From Saprospiraceae bacterium (GTDB lineage: Bacteria; Bacteroidota; Bacteroidia; Chitinophagales; Saprospiraceae), in contig JAIXOO010000465.1 in assembly GCA_027486765.1 (NCBI GenBank), positions 1 to 64,000 of the forward strand: DNA of 64,000 nucleotides, read 5' to 3'. Numbering within the stretch: the stretch's first letter is position 1; the number at the start of each line of letters is the position of its first letter. The translations under genes and the position numbers were made by a program. Of this stretch, positions 59,107 through 64,000 are shown one piece after another. The notes under the pieces are model-generated. The model saw only the letters and a program-made list of their open reading frames with translations, had not been told where the DNA came from and ran no database searches.

Positions 59107-60654
59107 ATGACAAAATCAATGTTTACTTTCCAAACGAAGCTCATCCTCATCTCGTCCGCCGCCATCTTAGGCTTTAACATTTCTTTAGCAGCCTTTGGCT
59201 TCGGGCCGGGCAAAGTTATACAAAGCCACCGAATCCCTACGGATAAGCGGATAAATTATTCGTCGTCAGATTCCTTATTGCAAAAGTCCAATGCTTCATA
59301 CCAGCTCAAAACAGTAGTGATTGATGCTGGCCACGGTGGCCACGATCCCGGTTGCCACGGTGCCAGTGCCCATGAAAAACACGTCACCCTGGCCATCGCC
59401 AAAAAACTGGCTGAACAATTGCAGCAACGTTTTCCAGGGCTTAAGGTCGTGTTGACGCGCGACAAGGACGTCTTCATCCCCTTGTATGAGCGGGCCGACA
59501 TCGCCAATAAAAACAACGCCGACTTGTTCATTTCCATTCATTGCAATGCCATGCCCGGCAACAACGGTGGAACTTACGGCACAGAAACCTACGTCATGGG
59601 TTTGCACACCGCTCAATACAATCTGGAGGTGGCGAAACGCGAAAACGCTGCCATCCTCCTGGAAGATAATTACCAAAAAAATTACGACTACGACCCCAAT
59701 TCTCCTGAGGGGCACATCATGATCAGCATGTTTCAAAATGCGTATTTGAAACAAAGTTTACAATTTGCAGAGCTGGTCGAAAACAAATTGAACTTGCAGG
59801 CCAAACGCAAATCGCGGGGTGTAAAGCAGGCGGGTTTTGTGGTGTTGAAAGCAACGGCCATGCCCAGTGTACTGGTGGAAGTTGGTTTTTTGACCAACCC
59901 TGCGGAAGAGCAATTTTTGAATGGGCAATATGGCCAGGATCAAGTGGCTGGTGCGATGCTGGAGGCCTTCACTTTGTACAAAAACCACGCCGAATCACCA
60001 GATTTTAATACAGAAAGCCAGTATGAAAACAGTGGGCAAAAAGAGGCTGTAGCTACTACCAATCCTGCGACTCCCATCGCCTATTCTTACGGCGCTTCCA
60101 ATCAAAAAACTAGCAATAATACCGCCGCCCAAAACGAAAACAAAAACCCGGAATTGGCCAAATCCAAAGAAATCCCCGCGCCAGAACGGGCCAATGATCC
60201 GGGAGGAAATAGCCACAATGCAGCCACCAACAACCCAGGTAATGCTTCCTCGCTCAGTCGTTATGGCCCCGTACCGCCAGGGCCAAACGTCAATCGGAAT
60301 CCAAGCATCAACAACCCAACGGTAAACAATACCTCGGGAACAAATGCAAAAATTCCTCCTCATCCGCTCGACAACAGTACGGCTCAAGTGAGCTTTAAAA
60401 TCCAGTTGGCCGCCGGACCGGTAGCCCCGAACCAAGCAGAATCCAAGTGGAAAACTTTCCCCTTTCCCATCGAAGTGGCTCAGGAAGACAATTTGTACAA
60501 GATTCGTACCCAAGCTTATACCGACTATCAACAAGCCAATCAGGTACGTAGCCGCTGTAAGGAATTGGGCTTCAATGATGCATTTATTGTGGCAATGAAG
60601 GATGGGAAACGCATCTCGTTGCCGGAGGCTAAAAAGGTGTTGGGTATTCCTTGA
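59107..60654 (+). CDS. N-acetylmuramoyl-L-alanine amidase with SPOR-like tail
   Basis: A 515-residue amidase from the ATG at 59107; this gives a proper signal segment (about 10-33), while the longer frame from 59011 does not. The Amidase_3 domain (about 68-290) has zinc ligands His 76 (DAGHGG), Glu 90 and His 145 (SIHCNA) and the catalytic Glu 258 (VEVGFLTNP). It cuts the bond between MurNAc and L-Ala in peptidoglycan. A low-complexity linker rich in Asn, Pro and Ser (about 295-425) leads to a SPOR-like C-terminal domain (about 430-515, FKIQLAAGPVAPNQAESKWK and YTDYQQANQVRSRCKELGFN). SPOR domains bind denuded glycan at division sites, so a role in daughter-cell separation is likely. A long palindrome follows. 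Confidence 0.93.
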   Translation: MTKSMFTFQTKLILISSAAILGFNISLAAFGFGPGKVIQSHRIPTDKRINYSSSDSLLQKSNASYQLKTVVIDAGHGGHDPGCHGASAHEKHVTLAIAKKLAEQLQQRFPGLKVVLTRDKDVFIPLYERADIANKNNADLFISIHCNAMPGNNGGTYGTETYVMGLHTAQYNLEVAKRENAAILLEDNYQKNYDYDPNSPEGHIMISMFQNAYLKQSLQFAELVENKLNLQAKRKSRGVKQAGFVVLKATAMPSVLVEVGFLTNPAEEQFLNGQYGQDQVAGAMLEAFTLYKNHAESPDFNTESQYENSGQKEAVATTNPATPIAYSYGASNQKTSNNTAAQNENKNPELAKSKEIPAPERANDPGGNSHNAATNNPGNASSLSRYGPVPPGPNVNRNPSINNPTVNNTSGTNAKIPPHPLDNSTAQVSFKIQLAAGPVAPNQAESKWKTFPFPIEVAQEDNLYKIRTQAYTDYQQANQVRSRCKELGFNDAFIVAMKDGKRISLPEAKKVLGIP

Positions 60655-60660
60655 AAATAG

Positions 60661-60786
60661 TTGAGGGAGGTTGAGAAGGTTGAGAAGGTTTAGGCTGCCG
60701 CAGCAATTTTGACAATGTCCTTGTCCAAGTCCCTGCGGCAGCCTAAACCTCACTAAACCTTCCTCAACTTTCCTCAACCTTTTCAA
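60661..60786. repeat. Large nested palindrome between amidase and mlaD-like gene
   Basis: A 17-bp perfect core stem (60687-60703 with 60733-60749, containing GGCTGCCGCAG) is extended by outer arms made of tandem copies of GGTTGAGAA on the left and TTCCTCAAC on the right. The whole fills the space between the amidase stop and the next gene's promoter. It has no U-run next to the stem. Confidence 0.85.
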
Positions 60787-60796
60787 CTCTTTTATT

Positions 60797-60804
60797 TAGC
60801 TTTG
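60797..60804 (+). promoter_or_regulatory. Putative -7 box of the mlaD-like gene promoter
   Basis: TAGCTTTG matches TANNTTTG exactly, 22 bases before the ATG at 60827, the same spacing as at the GLPGLI gene. The expected -33 position lies in the right arm of the palindrome, where only C/T-rich sequence is seen. Confidence 0.45.
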
Positions 60805-60826
60805 CGCCTCCAAAATTTTGCATTTC

Positions 60827-61855
60827 ATGTCAAACGAAATTAAAATCGCCCTTCTGGCTGTTGTTGCTATTGCACTTTCCATTTGGGGAATCAAGTTCAT
60901 CAAAGGAAAGAACCTCCTCACTCGCTCCAACCTCTACTACGTGGAGTACGAGGATGCACTCAGTATCCAAACCTCATCATCGGTGGTGATCCAAGGGGTG
61001 AACGTTGGCTATGTCGCCGATGTCAAACTGCAGAAAGGTTCGGAAAAAGTCCTGGTTACCCTGGATTTGAACAAAGACCTGGAAGTGCCAAAAGGTACCC
61101 GTGCAGAGATTTTTGCCAATGGTTTTATGGGCACGAAAAGTGTTCGCCTGCAATTCCCTCCCGTTGAAGAACGCCAGGGCATGCTCGAACCCGGCGCTTA
61201 TCTGATCCCTGGTTCAGTGGGCTTCCTGGGGGCCAATATTCCGCAGGACGAACTCAAACAATACGTACAAATCATCCAAGATGGCATCAAAGGTGCCCTG
61301 GATTCGCTCAATGAGGGCCTGACCAATGGGGATCCGAATAGCCCGATCAATCGCAGCTTGAAAAACCTTGAATTGACCCTGGCCAACTTACAATCGGCTA
61401 CTTCCTCGGCAGATCGCCTCTTGTCCTCTTCTTCCGGTGAAATCAAAGGTACCCTCAAAAGCCTGAACGAGCTGAGCGCCAGCCTCGCCAGCAGCAAAGC
61501 CAAAATTGGCAGCATCATCAACAATGCGGATAAATTCAGCGGTCAGCTGAATGAAATGGACTTGAAGAAGACCATCGCAGAAGTGGATCAGACCCTGGCC
61601 GGACTCAAAGTCACCTTAAATAAAGCAAATCAAACCTTTGGTTCAGTTGAAGGGATGATGAATGACGTTAAAGCAGGAAAAGGCTCGCTTGGCAAGTTGC
61701 TCAGCAATGATAGCTTGTACAATAGCTTTGATCGCCTGAGTACCCGTGCGGATTCTTTGACAACAGACATTAAAAATCGCCCTTATCGTTACATTCCGCT
61801 GAAAGGTAGAAAGCGGGTGTTGAAGTATGATAAACTCGACGCTAAGAAGCAATAA
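60827..61855 (+). CDS. MlaD/MCE family lipid-transport protein
   Basis: A 342-residue protein from the ATG at 60827; the TTG nine bases upstream is not needed. One N-terminal membrane helix (about 5-23) precedes an MCE/MlaD domain (about 35-115, with DALSIQTSSSVVIQGVNVGY, VTLDLNKDLEVPKGTRAEIF and FMGTKSVRLQFP). A long helical, coiled-coil-like tail follows (about 150-310, rich in SLNELSASLASSKAKI and similar). MCE proteins form hexameric rings or tubes that carry phospholipids between the membranes. No MlaE or MlaF permease or ATPase is adjacent in the window. The stop is followed directly by a 30-bp perfect palindrome. Confidence 0.9.
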   Translation: MSNEIKIALLAVVAIALSIWGIKFIKGKNLLTRSNLYYVEYEDALSIQTSSSVVIQGVNVGYVADVKLQKGSEKVLVTLDLNKDLEVPKGTRAEIFANGFMGTKSVRLQFPPVEERQGMLEPGAYLIPGSVGFLGANIPQDELKQYVQIIQDGIKGALDSLNEGLTNGDPNSPINRSLKNLELTLANLQSATSSADRLLSSSSGEIKGTLKSLNELSASLASSKAKIGSIINNADKFSGQLNEMDLKKTIAEVDQTLAGLKVTLNKANQTFGSVEGMMNDVKAGKGSLGKLLSNDSLYNSFDRLSTRADSLTTDIKNRPYRYIPLKGRKRVLKYDKLDAKKQ

Positions 61856-61856
61856 G

Positions 61857-61938
61857 ATTTCGGATTTCGTGATTTCGGATTTCGGTGGACTTTCAGGCTT
61901 GGAATTCTACCGAAATCCGAAATCACGAAATCCGAAAT
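61857..61938. repeat. 30-bp perfect inverted repeat after the mlaD-like gene
   Basis: Arms 61857-61886 and 61909-61938 are perfect 30-base inverted copies separated by 22 bases. Each arm itself holds GATTTCGGATTTCG-type words twice. The left arm starts one base after the TAA stop of the mlaD-like gene. The right arm is repeated, identical over 29 bases, at 62376-62404, beyond the four-helix-bundle gene. Confidence 0.95.
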
Positions 61939-61942
61939 GGAT

Positions 61943-62347
61943 TCATTTTTTAGGGTGGTTACGTTTTGTTGATACAATCGTACTTACAACAATTGCCATT
62001 AATTCATCAGCTTCTTTCCACAATGGCGCTACTTTCGTTCGGTATTCATTGGAAAGTCCAACCGTAAATTCTAACCAAAATTGAGTTTCATCCAACTCCT
62101 CCTCTACGGTACCCATTTTTGAAATAAAATCAGCCTTTGATTTCGCCCGACATGCAGCGCGGTAATTCGCAGCAACAGAAGGCCCGCTACGGACAATTTG
62201 GTTCCTTACTGTTCTAAAACCAAGTGAATCGGGTAAACTCTCCGCAAAATGCACGATTGAAATAGCAAATTTTTTCAACCTCTCCTGAAGCTCTTTTTTA
62301 TCCACAATAAAAAAATATGATTCTGAAATACGATTGTCAGCTATCAT
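61943..62347 (-). CDS. Four-helix-bundle protein (S23/23S rRNA IVS family)
   Basis: A small all-helical protein of 134 residues from the ATG at 62347; a GTG at 62305 would give the more usual 120-residue form, and the longest frame starts inside the right-hand repeat at 62392. Family marks are ERLKKFAISIVHFAESLPDS, VRNQIVRSGPSVAANYRAAC, KADFISKMGTVEEELDETQF and WLEFTVGLS. Relatives are encoded inside intervening sequences of 23S rRNA genes, and Avd of diversity-generating retroelements shares the fold; they are basic and bind nucleic acid. No 23S gene and no reverse transcriptase is in the window. The gene is bracketed by identical 29-base repeats (61910-61938, 62376-62404) plus an inverted arm at 61857. 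Confidence 0.88.
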   Translation of the reverse strand: MIADNRISESYFFIVDKKELQERLKKFAISIVHFAESLPDSLGFRTVRNQIVRSGPSVAANYRAACRAKSKADFISKMGTVEEELDETQFWLEFTVGLSNEYRTKVAPLWKEADELMAIVVSTIVSTKRNHPKK

Positions 62348-62375
62348 AAACCCCAGACGCAAAGCACCCACAAAT

Positions 62376-62404
62376 CCGAAATCCGAAATCACGAAATCCG
62401 AAAT
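62376..62404. repeat. Distal 29-base copy of the flanking repeat
   Basis: Identical over 29 bases to 61910-61938 and in the same orientation; both are perfect reverse complements of 61857-61885. It ends two bases before the TAG stop of the PorP/SprF gene (62406-62408, minus strand), so that stop is followed at once by GATTTCGGATTTCG. Confidence 0.95.
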
Positions 62405-62405
62405 C

Positions 62406-63455
62406 CTACAGTTTTGGACAGATCAACCGCGACCGACTCCGATCCGGCCGAATATACGTCAGCGACATCTCAAACGCTCCTCTCGAATAATTCGAAGCCT
62501 TCAGCCCCGAAGAAGTAATATCATAGCTGAAACCCAGGTTCCATTTTTCCATTTCAAAAATAGCGGCCACAATCACCGCATCCACGCCAACGCCCCGATC
62601 AGCGCGGTTGTTGACGTGCGTCCACAAGCCCGTGCGCAGGGCCAGTTCCTTCCATTCGCGGTTGGTGTACCGAATGTTGGCACCTAGCGTGGTACTCATC
62701 ATTGGGCCCTGGTTCATGAACAAAAAGGCGGGCATGATGCTCAACTGTTTGGTCAGTGGCAATTCACCACCGCCGTGAATGCTGTAGCGTCGGAAAACCC
62801 GCACCTGATCGTCGCCCGTAAAGGAAGCAGAGGGCTCATTTAAGTGGTGCATGGCGCCACCGAGGTACAAGCTTTTGTTGTCGTCCCAAACGGCGTACCA
62901 CAACACTCCGGCATTAAAATCGAAGTAAGGATTGCTGCTCAGGCCATCAAATGCCTCATTGGTGGGGGCGTTGGGATCGAAAAAATACCCATTGGCGTCG
63001 TATTGCGCCGAAAAGGACAAATCCGCCCAGTTGAGGGATTGTTGGGCAAAACCCAACTGTGCACCTGCCACGATGTACTGCTCATTGGCGGCATAACGCC
63101 CTCCATTGACCTGCTTGAGGTAAGCTCCACCGACGTTGAATTGGGTCAGGTGAAAATTGGCCAGGCCCGCCTGATCACGCATGGCGGAGCCACTGATGGC
63201 AAAATAATCCTTATTCGCCGCGCGGAACCGTTGGTCCCAACTGGCCGACATGGTTCTGAACGGTTTGTTGCCCAAAAGGCTGTAATACAAGTCGCGGTAA
63301 TTCACCGCCAGGCGGGCGGAACCGCTGGTTACACCGGCCATCGCGGGATTCACATGCAGAGGGGAGGCATAAAATTGGGCGAAGCGGGGGTCTTGCGCCT
63401 GTATTTTTGCCCAAAAGGACAAAAACAGGATCGAAAATAGTACGTATTGCTTCAT
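62406..63455 (-). CDS. PorP/SprF family type IX secretion membrane protein
   Basis: A 349-residue outer membrane beta-barrel protein. The signal peptide ends near residue 20 (KIQAQ). The family start QDPRFAQFYASPLHVNPAMA is plain, followed by ARLAVNYRDLYYSLLGNKPF and repeated barrel strands (LSIMPAFLFMNQGPMMSTTL, LGANIRYTNREWKELALRTG), ending SYDITSSGLKASNYSRGAFE and MSLTYI. PorP/SprF proteins take part in T9SS; many Bacteroidota have several, often next to a T9SS-exported adhesin. Here it stands without porK-N, and the neighbour across a divergent gap is a PorV/PorQ-like gene. Confidence 0.93.
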   Translation of the reverse strand: MKQYVLFSILFLSFWAKIQAQDPRFAQFYASPLHVNPAMAGVTSGSARLAVNYRDLYYSLLGNKPFRTMSASWDQRFRAANKDYFAISGSAMRDQAGLANFHLTQFNVGGAYLKQVNGGRYAANEQYIVAGAQLGFAQQSLNWADLSFSAQYDANGYFFDPNAPTNEAFDGLSSNPYFDFNAGVLWYAVWDDNKSLYLGGAMHHLNEPSASFTGDDQVRVFRRYSIHGGGELPLTKQLSIMPAFLFMNQGPMMSTTLGANIRYTNREWKELALRTGLWTHVNNRADRGVGVDAVIVAAIFEMEKWNLGFSYDITSSGLKASNYSRGAFEMSLTYIRPDRSRSRLICPKL

Positions 63456-63585
63456 GTTTTGGAATTATTCAAGGCAAAATAAGCCTCTTTTGACTTTCTT
63501 TTCGCCAAGATACGGAGTTTAACATTTATAAATGTTTTCAAAAATACAAAAAGGTCGGGAAGTGGGTGTGCTAAAATAATTTCCT

Positions 63586-63593
63586 TAGTTTTA
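63586..63593 (+). promoter_or_regulatory. Possible -7 box of the last gene
   Basis: TAGTTTTA matches TANNTTTG at seven of eight positions and lies about 20 bases before the start codon of the last gene, the spacing seen at two other genes here. Confidence 0.3.
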
Positions 63594-63614
63594 CCACCTG
63601 CCAACTACATGTTC

Positions 63615-64000
63615 ATGAATCGTTCCAGCATCATCCTATTCTTTATTCTAAGCATCTGTTTTTGCTGCCTTCAGGCCCAAAATGCCTTGCTGGCCCCCGT
63701 TTCGCCACGCAGCAATGCATTGGGCAAAACCAGTCTGAATTTTACCGATTTACACAGCCTTTTTGGCAACCAGGCCGGCCTGGCCAATCTGGAAACCTTC
63801 GGTGTGATGGGCATGGTAGAACAACGTTATTTATTGGCTGACCTGAATCAAGCGGCTTTTGGAGCGGCGTTGCCCACTTTTTCTGGGGTTTTTGGCTTGA
63901 TTTTGCGCAATTTTGGCACGGGGGATTACCGCGAAACGGGCGCTGGCCTGGCTTATGCCCGCAAATTGTCGGATCGCCTGCGCATTGGAGGGCAATTGCA
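63615..64000 (+). CDS. PorV/PorQ-like outer membrane protein, 5' part
   Basis: An open frame from the ATG at 63615 (an ATG at 63609 is also possible) to the end of the window, 128 codons. It starts with a signal peptide (MNRSSIILFFILSICFCCLQ, cut after AQ). The mature start NALLAPVSPRSNALGKTSLN, DLHSLFGNQAGLANLETFGV and TGAGLAYARKLSDRLRIGGQ resembles the PorV/PorQ-related outer membrane proteins of Bacteroidota, in which an early loop reads NQAGL. The 3' end is missing, so exact family membership cannot be set. It is divergent from the PorP/SprF gene. Confidence 0.75.
   Translation, partial: MNRSSIILFFILSICFCCLQAQNALLAPVSPRSNALGKTSLNFTDLHSLFGNQAGLANLETFGVMGMVEQRYLLADLNQAAFGAALPTFSGVFGLILRNFGTGDYRETGAGLAYARKLSDRLRIGGQL

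Follow-up and report, generated by a model that had tools for sequence, protein, structure and literature searches.

Proteins of the S23/IVP family (PF05635/TIGR02436) are encoded in the intervening sequences (IVS) of 23S rRNA in Leptospira, Coxiella and Brucella, where the open reading frame (ORF) lies inside a terminal stem. The terminal stem of the Coxiella IVS is 28 bp long, and mobility has been proposed for these sequences (PMC4990558). The locus reported here lies in a stretch of DNA from a Saprospiraceae bacterium that is 64,000 nucleotides long and is called the window below. It resembles an IVS in that a gene for a four-helix-bundle (4HB) protein of the same family is enclosed by outer arms that pair perfectly over 29 bp. 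Unlike an IVS, the unit is not located in a 23S rRNA helix; its flanking genes are, as the original prediction had it, an mlaD-like gene and porP, with profile matches to MlaD (PF02470) and PorP/SprF (PF11751). A further difference is that 4HB units carry tandem heptads specific to each locus and are accompanied by dispersed gene-less hairpins of the same words.

Other described elements share other parts of this arrangement. In the REPIN-RAYT system, inverted doublets are dispersed over intergenic regions, the gene is flanked by the same repeat, and one repeat type belongs to each gene (PMC3116915). Dispersed inverted doublets forming hairpins, together with the same repeat beside a master gene, are common to that system and to the units described here, whereas the protein enclosed here is a 4HB protein and not a tyrosine (Y1) transposase, and the words are mostly unrelated between loci. 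The tags of the GTAG and CGTC repeat super-families (PMC3733652) are absent from the window arm on either strand. An Avd-like four-helix-bundle fold (Z about 14) is shared with diversity-generating retroelements (DGRs), and no reverse transcriptase is found among the four genes neighbouring the unit (LptD, amidase, MlaD and PorP). In contrast to an insertion sequence (IS) or MITE, no transposase lies between the window arms, although gene-less copies could still be MITE-like.

Furthermore, the window arms and the flanks of 4HB genes have intergenic tandem repeats of 7 nt, like the heptameric simple repeats of the STRR type; heptameric repeats of cyanobacteria, called STRRs, have long been known. 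Other heptameric repeats are TAACTGA of Beggiatoaceae and Bacteroidetes and GGGAATC of Xanthomonas (PMC4692102, PMC4679880), and heptamers of Calothrix and Nostoc are mentioned as well (PMC4692102). The over-representation of heptamers was found in 2007 and, according to these reports, has had no detailed literature since (PMC4692102, PMC4679880); polymerase slippage has been suggested for such repeats (PMC4692102). In the available text of the two reports the repeats are linked to no gene family (PMC4692102, PMC4679880), whereas here inverted arrays bracket 4HB genes. The BrickBuilt MITE of Porphyromonas gingivalis, also from the Bacteroidota, likewise combines intergenic tandem repeats with inverted ends; it differs by a 23-nt unit of one fixed sequence, and its account, as far as available, mentions no inside gene (PMC4596501). 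None of the matches listed in a search of open-access titles and abstracts, with subscription papers and preprints outside its scope, joins 4HB genes with heptad arrays. We call this kind of element new, because the unit lacks one defining feature each of IVS, REPIN-RAYT, DGR and IS, and we call its logic REPIN-like.

The window unit and its protein

The window's own genome (7.72 Mb) is referred to as G000; G001, G002, G003 and G004 belong to the same genus, and G003 is the sister species. The features of the unit, and of a second hairpin nearby, are as follows.

61857 to 61885, plus strand: arm A of the outer pair, on the 3' side of the 4HB gene; array of the heptads ATTTCGG/ATTTCGT-G/ATTTCGG/ATTTCGG
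61886 to 61909, no strand: 24-nt spacer between the arms of the short hairpin, for the most part paired as well (39-nt arms, 92% complementary, 4-nt loop)
61910 to 61938, minus strand: inner arm A', perfect reverse complement of A; the A + A' hairpin resembles gene-less ones elsewhere
61943 to 62347, minus strand: 4HB gene, encoding 134 aa when started at the ATG of 62347; TIGR02436 and PF05635 profile matches
62376 to 62404, minus strand: arm A' of the outer pair, on the 5' side of the 4HB gene, with the same sequence as 61910-61938; brackets the gene together with A
61856 to 62406, no strand: whole unit, without homology in G003 at the same site (blastn, window 60000-64000 against G003 L116)
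60657 to 60787, no strand: second hairpin, gene-less, located between the amidase gene and mlaD; its inverted repeats have the word GTTGAGAAG/GTTGAGG; same element class

Each 29-bp arm is made of four heptads and one additional base, and, in agreement with the prediction, 61857-61885 is reverse-complementary without a mismatch to 61910-61938 as well as to 62376-62404. The 22-base loop given for the short hairpin needs correction: the near arms are 24 bases apart, and the stem runs on into these bases. Two alternative structures had been proposed, the short hairpin and a long stem around the gene, and both have folding energies far beyond those of shuffled sequences. The near hairpin as DNA reaches -38.6 kcal/mol (z -12.3; equalled by 0 of 200 shuffles), and the minus-strand RNA of 61850-62410 reaches -175.9 kcal/mol (z -5.4; 0 of 100 shuffles), with the outer arms paired around the 4HB gene in its minimum-energy structure. 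The motif ATTTCGNNATTTCG, with at most one mismatch, has five matches in the window against 0.40 expected, and the three exact ones are all in the arms. The 4HB gene and mlaD are convergent, with the short hairpin between them. When a target-site duplication was looked for, the unit was found to be edged by repeats, and at this site relatives retain hairpins, some of the same word and some of a different one.

The second hairpin (GTTGAG word) contains an inner GCTGCCGCAG stem, and a similar outer-plus-inner build is seen in hairpins of G002 (GTTGAGG...GGCTACCGC). At the equivalent place in G003, about 33 bases are left between the aligned blocks, and they include a remnant that looks like half an arm.

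The assignment of the enclosed gene to the four-helix-bundle family is borne out by matches of its protein to TIGR02436 (68.3 bits, E 5.9e-19; cut-off 24) and PF05635 (44.1 bits, E 2.6e-11; cut-off 33.8). Called mechanically, the ORF reaches back to a GTG at 62392, which falls within the arm, and the ATG at 62347 is the likely start. An AlphaFold2 model of the protein (pLDDT 90.8, pTM 0.82) matches the PDB structures 2rld (Z 17.9) and 2gsc (Z 15.9), the latter being XCC0516 of Xanthomonas campestris, and also Avd of DGRs (8ub8, 8ub7 and 4dwl; Z 13.7-14.4). Taken alone, the match of the model to Avd is modest, because the same structure table lists other helical bundles with Z 12.5 and, for one de novo protein, with Z 14.1; it is supported by the published statement that PF05635 resembles Avd (PMC10053308). 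The Xanthomonas S23 protein has been described as a homopentamer (PMC4990558). No enzyme or catalytic domain was recognised in the window protein by profile search, which returned 4HB family matches only, and known defence-system models gave no match for the two 4HB proteins tested. TIGR02436 has no match in 14 control genomes, and phage records searched for 4HB relatives yielded two weak matches. The dN/dS ratios of 4HB genes, 0.04-0.11 in the eight of ten pairs with usable dS (the pairs being not all independent), show purifying selection on the predicted protein.

Inverted heptad arrays around genes of the family

G000 has three TIGR02436 genes. Each of them is bracketed by inverted heptad arrays, and the words are ATTTCGG (window), AAAAGTG (L001) and AAAAATG (L002). 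The family is present in 53 of 60 genomes (the own genome and 59 relatives), with 218 matches in total. From these, 93 loci were read: 33 with fetched loci, the own three included, and 60 picked from the listed matches by rank and distance from contig ends. Six of the 93 were dropped for short or N-bearing flanks, leaving 87 usable loci, and six of the 93 have an internal stop in the frame used. The 250-bp left flank of each gene was scored against the reverse complement of the right flank, and a score of at least 20 was counted as inverted flanks. The original prediction had proposed to look for the repeats beside other copies of the family, and inverted flanks are indeed present in 49 of the 87 loci, with 38 below the threshold. 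Swapped flanks reached it in 124 of 7482 pairs (1.7%), and in 11 of 198 when swapped within one genome. Among control genes, it was reached by 1 of 280 ORFs (at least 100 aa, from 400 kb of G002), by 0 of 21 mlaD genes (nine of 30 loci dropped) and by 1 of 28 Uma2 genes, another small multicopy family (best-scoring 30 of a longer list, two dropped). Phylum-wide, 26 of 75 named 4HB loci (best 80 of 576, five of the 80 dropped) have a score of at least 20, against 55 of 5550 swapped pairs; early stops at the match were seen in L345, which was kept, and in L347, which was dropped. By group, these are 22 of 65 Bacteroidota loci and 4 of 10 others among the best 80 of the 576, the four being metagenome-assembled records labelled Clostridia, Betaproteobacteria, Acidobacteria and Pirellula.

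That small multicopy genes generally sit in such hairpins was considered as well; this is ruled out for Uma2 and for random ORFs, but not for GxxExxY genes (TIGR04256; L215 matches PF13366, PDDEXK_3). Inverted arrays surround 10 of 27 usable GxxExxY loci, for example L215, L216 and L231 (best-scoring 30 of a longer list, L209-L238; three dropped), and their words have another look than the 4HB words, for example CACGACGACACGACG and GGCGCAGAGACGCAAAG. This suggests hairpin classes that each have their own genes.

The flanks of the 4HB genes show a period of seven. Base matches are in clear excess at lags 7 and 14 on both sides of the genes, in the 93-locus and the 80-locus sets alike, and this excess is absent from the flanks of 308 control ORFs. 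Heptad arrays are present on at least one side in 100 of 173 4HB loci and on both sides in 56, while shuffled flanks reached the array threshold in 1 of 346 cases. In 40 of the 56 two-sided loci, one of whose word pairs is an N run (L061), the left and right words agree in at least six of seven positions, against 3.2% of swapped pairs. The median array is about 34 nt long, and G exceeds C in the 5' arm of 43 of 49 loci.

Each word is largely private to its gene. Over the 92 loci with a word, there is no significant overall correlation between protein and word similarity (rho 0.048, p 0.066), and recognition of the word by the protein is unsupported overall from this correlation. Words are shared (at least six of seven positions) by 6 of 6 pairs above 85% protein identity, by 7 of 11 at 70-85% and by 9.8% of 92 pairs at 55-70%; at lower identity, sharing falls to 4.0% of 777 pairs at 45-55% and to 1.3-1.7% below 45%. 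The word tracks the protein only above about 55-70% identity, which fits units that are inherited or moved whole, and co-inheritance alone explains it. TTAATGG is common to two genera with 67-71% identical 4HB proteins.

The arrangement is also found on cyanobacterial plasmids. Of 28 plasmid records with a relative, 12 were read, all of them cyanobacterial. Inverted flanks (score at least 20) are present in 7 of the 12 4HB genes, against 11 of 132 swapped pairs and 0 of 79 other coding sequences (CDS); the swapped rate is higher on plasmids because some words recur. A heptad array on at least one side is found in 11 of 12, against 3 of 79 other CDS on two of these plasmids, and example words are AGTAGGG, ACAGGTG and AACAGGG. 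On a plasmid of Anabaena sp. 90, the avd gene of a DGR has a heptad array on one side only and lacks inverted flanks (score 11), unlike the stand-alone 4HB gene of the same plasmid (score 28). Three of the 12 plasmid 4HB genes (L430, L433 and L437) are located in CRISPR-Cas loci, in the order cas6-4HB-cas4 twice and cas10-4HB-cmr3 once.

Dispersed hairpins and movement of the units

With at most three mismatches, the 29-mer arm occurs at 21 places on 13 contigs of G000, against 0 for a reversed control pattern, and this dispersal rules out the arm as a unique 29-mer. Each of the 12 other contigs has ATTTCGG units with inverted CCGAAAT units at most about 150 bp away, which leaves no room for an intervening gene. 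Among the congeners, the arm occurs 15 times in G003, 7 times in G001 and 0 times in G002 and G004, and none of the 4HB genes found in G003 (seven) and G001 (two) has ATTTCGG. The prediction had named, as an argument against itself, a common dispersed word unrelated to the gene family. This applies in part: the word is dispersed, but related 4HB genes are bracketed by dispersed words too, each by its own.

Gene-less hairpins partly match the resident genes. In 400 kb sampled at even steps from the complete chromosome of G002 (8,371,686 bases), without overlap with its 4HB loci, 34 of 75 hairpins match arms of its own eight 4HB genes, seven of which have at least one match; random outgroup sets of eight genes gave a mean of 4.8 and a maximum of 12 matches in 1000 draws. 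The draft genomes show less contrast in this comparison. In G004, 2 of 16 hairpins match its own 4HB genes, and 5 of 1000 random sets are as good. The samples of G000 and G003 come partly from contigs known to hold repeats, which biases word counts, and a few draft hairpins may be N runs; read in this light, 9 of 83 sampled hairpins match the three genes of G000 (60 of 1000 random sets as good) and 7 of 61 match the genes of G003 (117 of 1000). Counting 4HB-like hairpins only, these are 9 of 41 in G000, where most match words of other congeners, and 7 of 20 in G003. G027 gave an uninformative replicate, with 13 hairpins called, seven of them N runs, and one that matched its own gene (197 of 1000 random sets as good).

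Two words, TTAATGG and GGTTCGGG, were counted in eight genomes; both were chosen from 4HB genes of the genomes rich in them, and their hits overlap within arrays. TTAATGG has 418 overlapping hits in G004, which has three genes with the word, 9 in G011, whose gene L067 has the same word, 1 in G007 (reversed control 12) and 0 in the five other genomes. GGTTCGGG has 721 overlapping hits in G002 (gene L070), 1 in G000 and 0 in six others. The first 100 listed TTAATGG hits in G004 belong to some 16 arrays, of which two are located at 4HB genes.

There are also words that lack a gene. The GTTGAG word is common in G000, and no matching gene is among the 4HB genes found. Words were expected beforehand on 4HB genes not yet read: ATGACGA was found (L367), ATTTCGG in G001 and G003 was not, and GTTGAAA is on L056, with arms outside the first scan, and absent on L369. 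Strict coupling of one gene to one word was rejected, as orphan words in the drafts of G000 and G003 argue against it. Heptad arrays stand at the ends of G000 contigs C1, C81, C278, C316, C368 and C460, where array lengths are unreliable. The arrays seem to break draft assemblies, and 4HB genes of G000 and G003 are possibly missing through such breaks.

The site of the window unit was compared between species. The flanks are 93-95% identical to the mlaD-porP site of G003, with homology ending at 61855 and restarting at 62407 (blastn). A site lacking the unit, as asked for by the original prediction, is present in G003, which is without 61856-62406 at this very place. The idea of an IVS-like unit of a mobile kind between protein genes is supported as well, since other units of the family occupy differing sites in near relatives or are found more than once per genome. 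The comparison is compatible with gain of the unit in G000 as well as with its loss in G003. In G002, a Uma2 gene (69.8 bits) lies beside mlaD at this site. The mlaD-porP intergenic region of G003 (L116) contains two other long hairpins, one of them with a GGACACAAAG-type word like some GxxExxY flanks.

Judged from aligned loci, 4HB units move between genome sites. L001 of G000 and L095 of G003 are 90.7% identical over 492 bp, which comprise the gene and the arms only, with no flank match beyond the arms at E 1e-20. L051, L071 and L072, at three sites of G004, are 86-96% identical over about 550 bp, from arm to arm. Site A, that of L001, is beside a gene read as chorismate-synthase-like. It has a gene-less AAAAATG hairpin in G003, and in G002 a stretch that contains no gene but a short remnant similar to CGCTATT. 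In G001 (L187, 2980-4304), a 1.3-kb insert encoding a 390-aa ORF lies at this site between an AAAAGTG and a CACTTAT array; in G004, its flanks match two different contigs. Site B, that of L095, is occupied by a hairpin without a gene in three genomes; its word is AAAAGTG in G000 and G002 but ATGACGA in G001. Two sister species thus carry one unit at different sites, each of which is a gene-less hairpin in the other species. At a third site, read as the glnA side, a 4HB gene is common to G000, G003 and G002. The 5' array is AAAAATG in G000 and G003 and AAAAGTG (about 22 copies) in G002, while the 3' arm is AAAAATG in all three. That both arms always change their word together is ruled out by this G002 locus, which differs in the 5' arm only. 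The loops of the gene-less hairpins at L190 (site A of G003) and L198 (site B of G000) share AGGTACACC(A/T)GT, which suggests that hairpins may be copied together with their loops.

A proposed master gene with satellite hairpins, and other explanations

We consider it slightly more probable than not that the window unit is one copy of a widespread and very small mobile element, in which the gene-bearing hairpin is the master, the gene-less hairpins are its satellites, and the 4HB protein acts on hairpins of its own word. The element would consist of an Avd/S23-like 4HB gene that occupies the loop of a hairpin, with arms built from tandem copies of a heptad word private to the element lineage. 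The protein, a pentameric ring by homology, would bind its own family's heptad array in the form of single-stranded DNA or of RNA, possibly with one heptad per ring subunit, because the median array of 34 nt is close to 5 x 7. It may help to copy or swap hairpins into new intergenic sites by way of host replication or recombination enzymes. By analogy, such a scheme would work like REPIN-RAYT, with a protein that has no recognised catalytic domain. Speaking for this reading are the association of 4HB genes with inverted heptad arrays, the agreement of left and right words at most two-sided loci, the changed locations, the selection on the protein and the matching hairpins of G002. Speaking against it are the words without a matching gene, the 38 loci below the threshold, the missing overall correlation of word and protein, the single changed arm at the third site and the one-sided array of the Anabaena avd gene.

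The main rival holds that the hairpins are spread by slippage, template switching, RecA-type exchange of arrays or an unlinked transposase, and that 4HB genes are loop cassettes kept for some other reason. Sites A and B agree with it, keeping their hairpin arms while the loop content differs, as exchange between hairpins of the same word would give; so do the words that are often orphan in G000 and G003, and the 390-aa ORF at site A of G001, which is another gene between arrays. This explanation leaves aside why bracketing is specific to 4HB genes (49/87, 26/75 and 7/12) in comparison with Uma2 genes and random ORFs, and why TTAATGG and GGTTCGGG arrays are nearly restricted to genomes with a matching gene, and we regard it as unlikely.

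A smaller chance still is given to insertion of the 4HB gene into the loops of pre-existing hairpins, with the arms taken from the target as for IVS in 23S rRNA helices. Relatives do have gene-less hairpins at the same sites, IVS have been described as taking the place of small loops in helices (PMC4990558), and IS1272 has been reported to target inverted repeats (PMC5678879). However, copies at different sites have the same word (the three sites of G004, G000 versus G003, and TTAATGG in two genera), so that the target would need to have that word each time. It is least probable, in our opinion, that the hairpins serve the neighbouring genes as mRNA terminators or as RNase III sites, with the 4HB protein as an RNA-binding regulator and movement as incidental. 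The very stable short hairpin between the convergent mlaD and 4HB genes, the minus-strand RNA able to form a stem enclosing the gene, and a fold shared with Avd, part of a ribonucleoprotein (title of 8ub7), would suit such a role; but at the three intergenic sites compared, close relatives have no hairpin, a hairpin of another word or other sequence, and with this variability no conserved regulatory role is visible.

The reading of a master gene with satellites can be extended, with a confidence that stays a little short of even. The units would then be a new class of mobile element without a transposase, nuclease or reverse transcriptase of its own, in which an Avd-like ring reads the private 7-nt word wrapped round it, forms a self-recognising pair with it and spreads gene-less satellite hairpins. 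Such elements would commonly give rise to the heptamer repeats that are over-represented in Bacteroidota, in cyanobacteria and perhaps in Xanthomonas, and GxxExxY PD-(D/E)XK proteins would be a parallel second master gene with a word class of its own. This would offer a cause for a feature of bacterial genomes that has been little studied, their excess of heptamer repeats, and a testable function for a protein family whose structure is solved but whose function is not known (2rld, 2gsc), the same family as the ORFs of 23S rRNA IVS. If the protein reads the word, these would be very small self-spreading elements of about 500 bp with one protein of about 120 aa, and the subunits of a ring would be paired with a 7-nt register. 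XCC0516, the protein of 2gsc, and the GGGAATC-rich genome presumably belong to the same X. campestris strain. In X. campestris pv. campestris ATCC 33913, 186 GGGAATC repeats have been reported (PMC4692102).

A second type of 4HB site is seen in the four congeners (L365, L366, L368 and L369), where the gene is beside tRNA-Val and accompanied by GTGTGG/CACACC repeats. This gene is located between tRNA-Val and tRNA-Pro in G002, G003 and G004, and it runs into a longer frame in G001.
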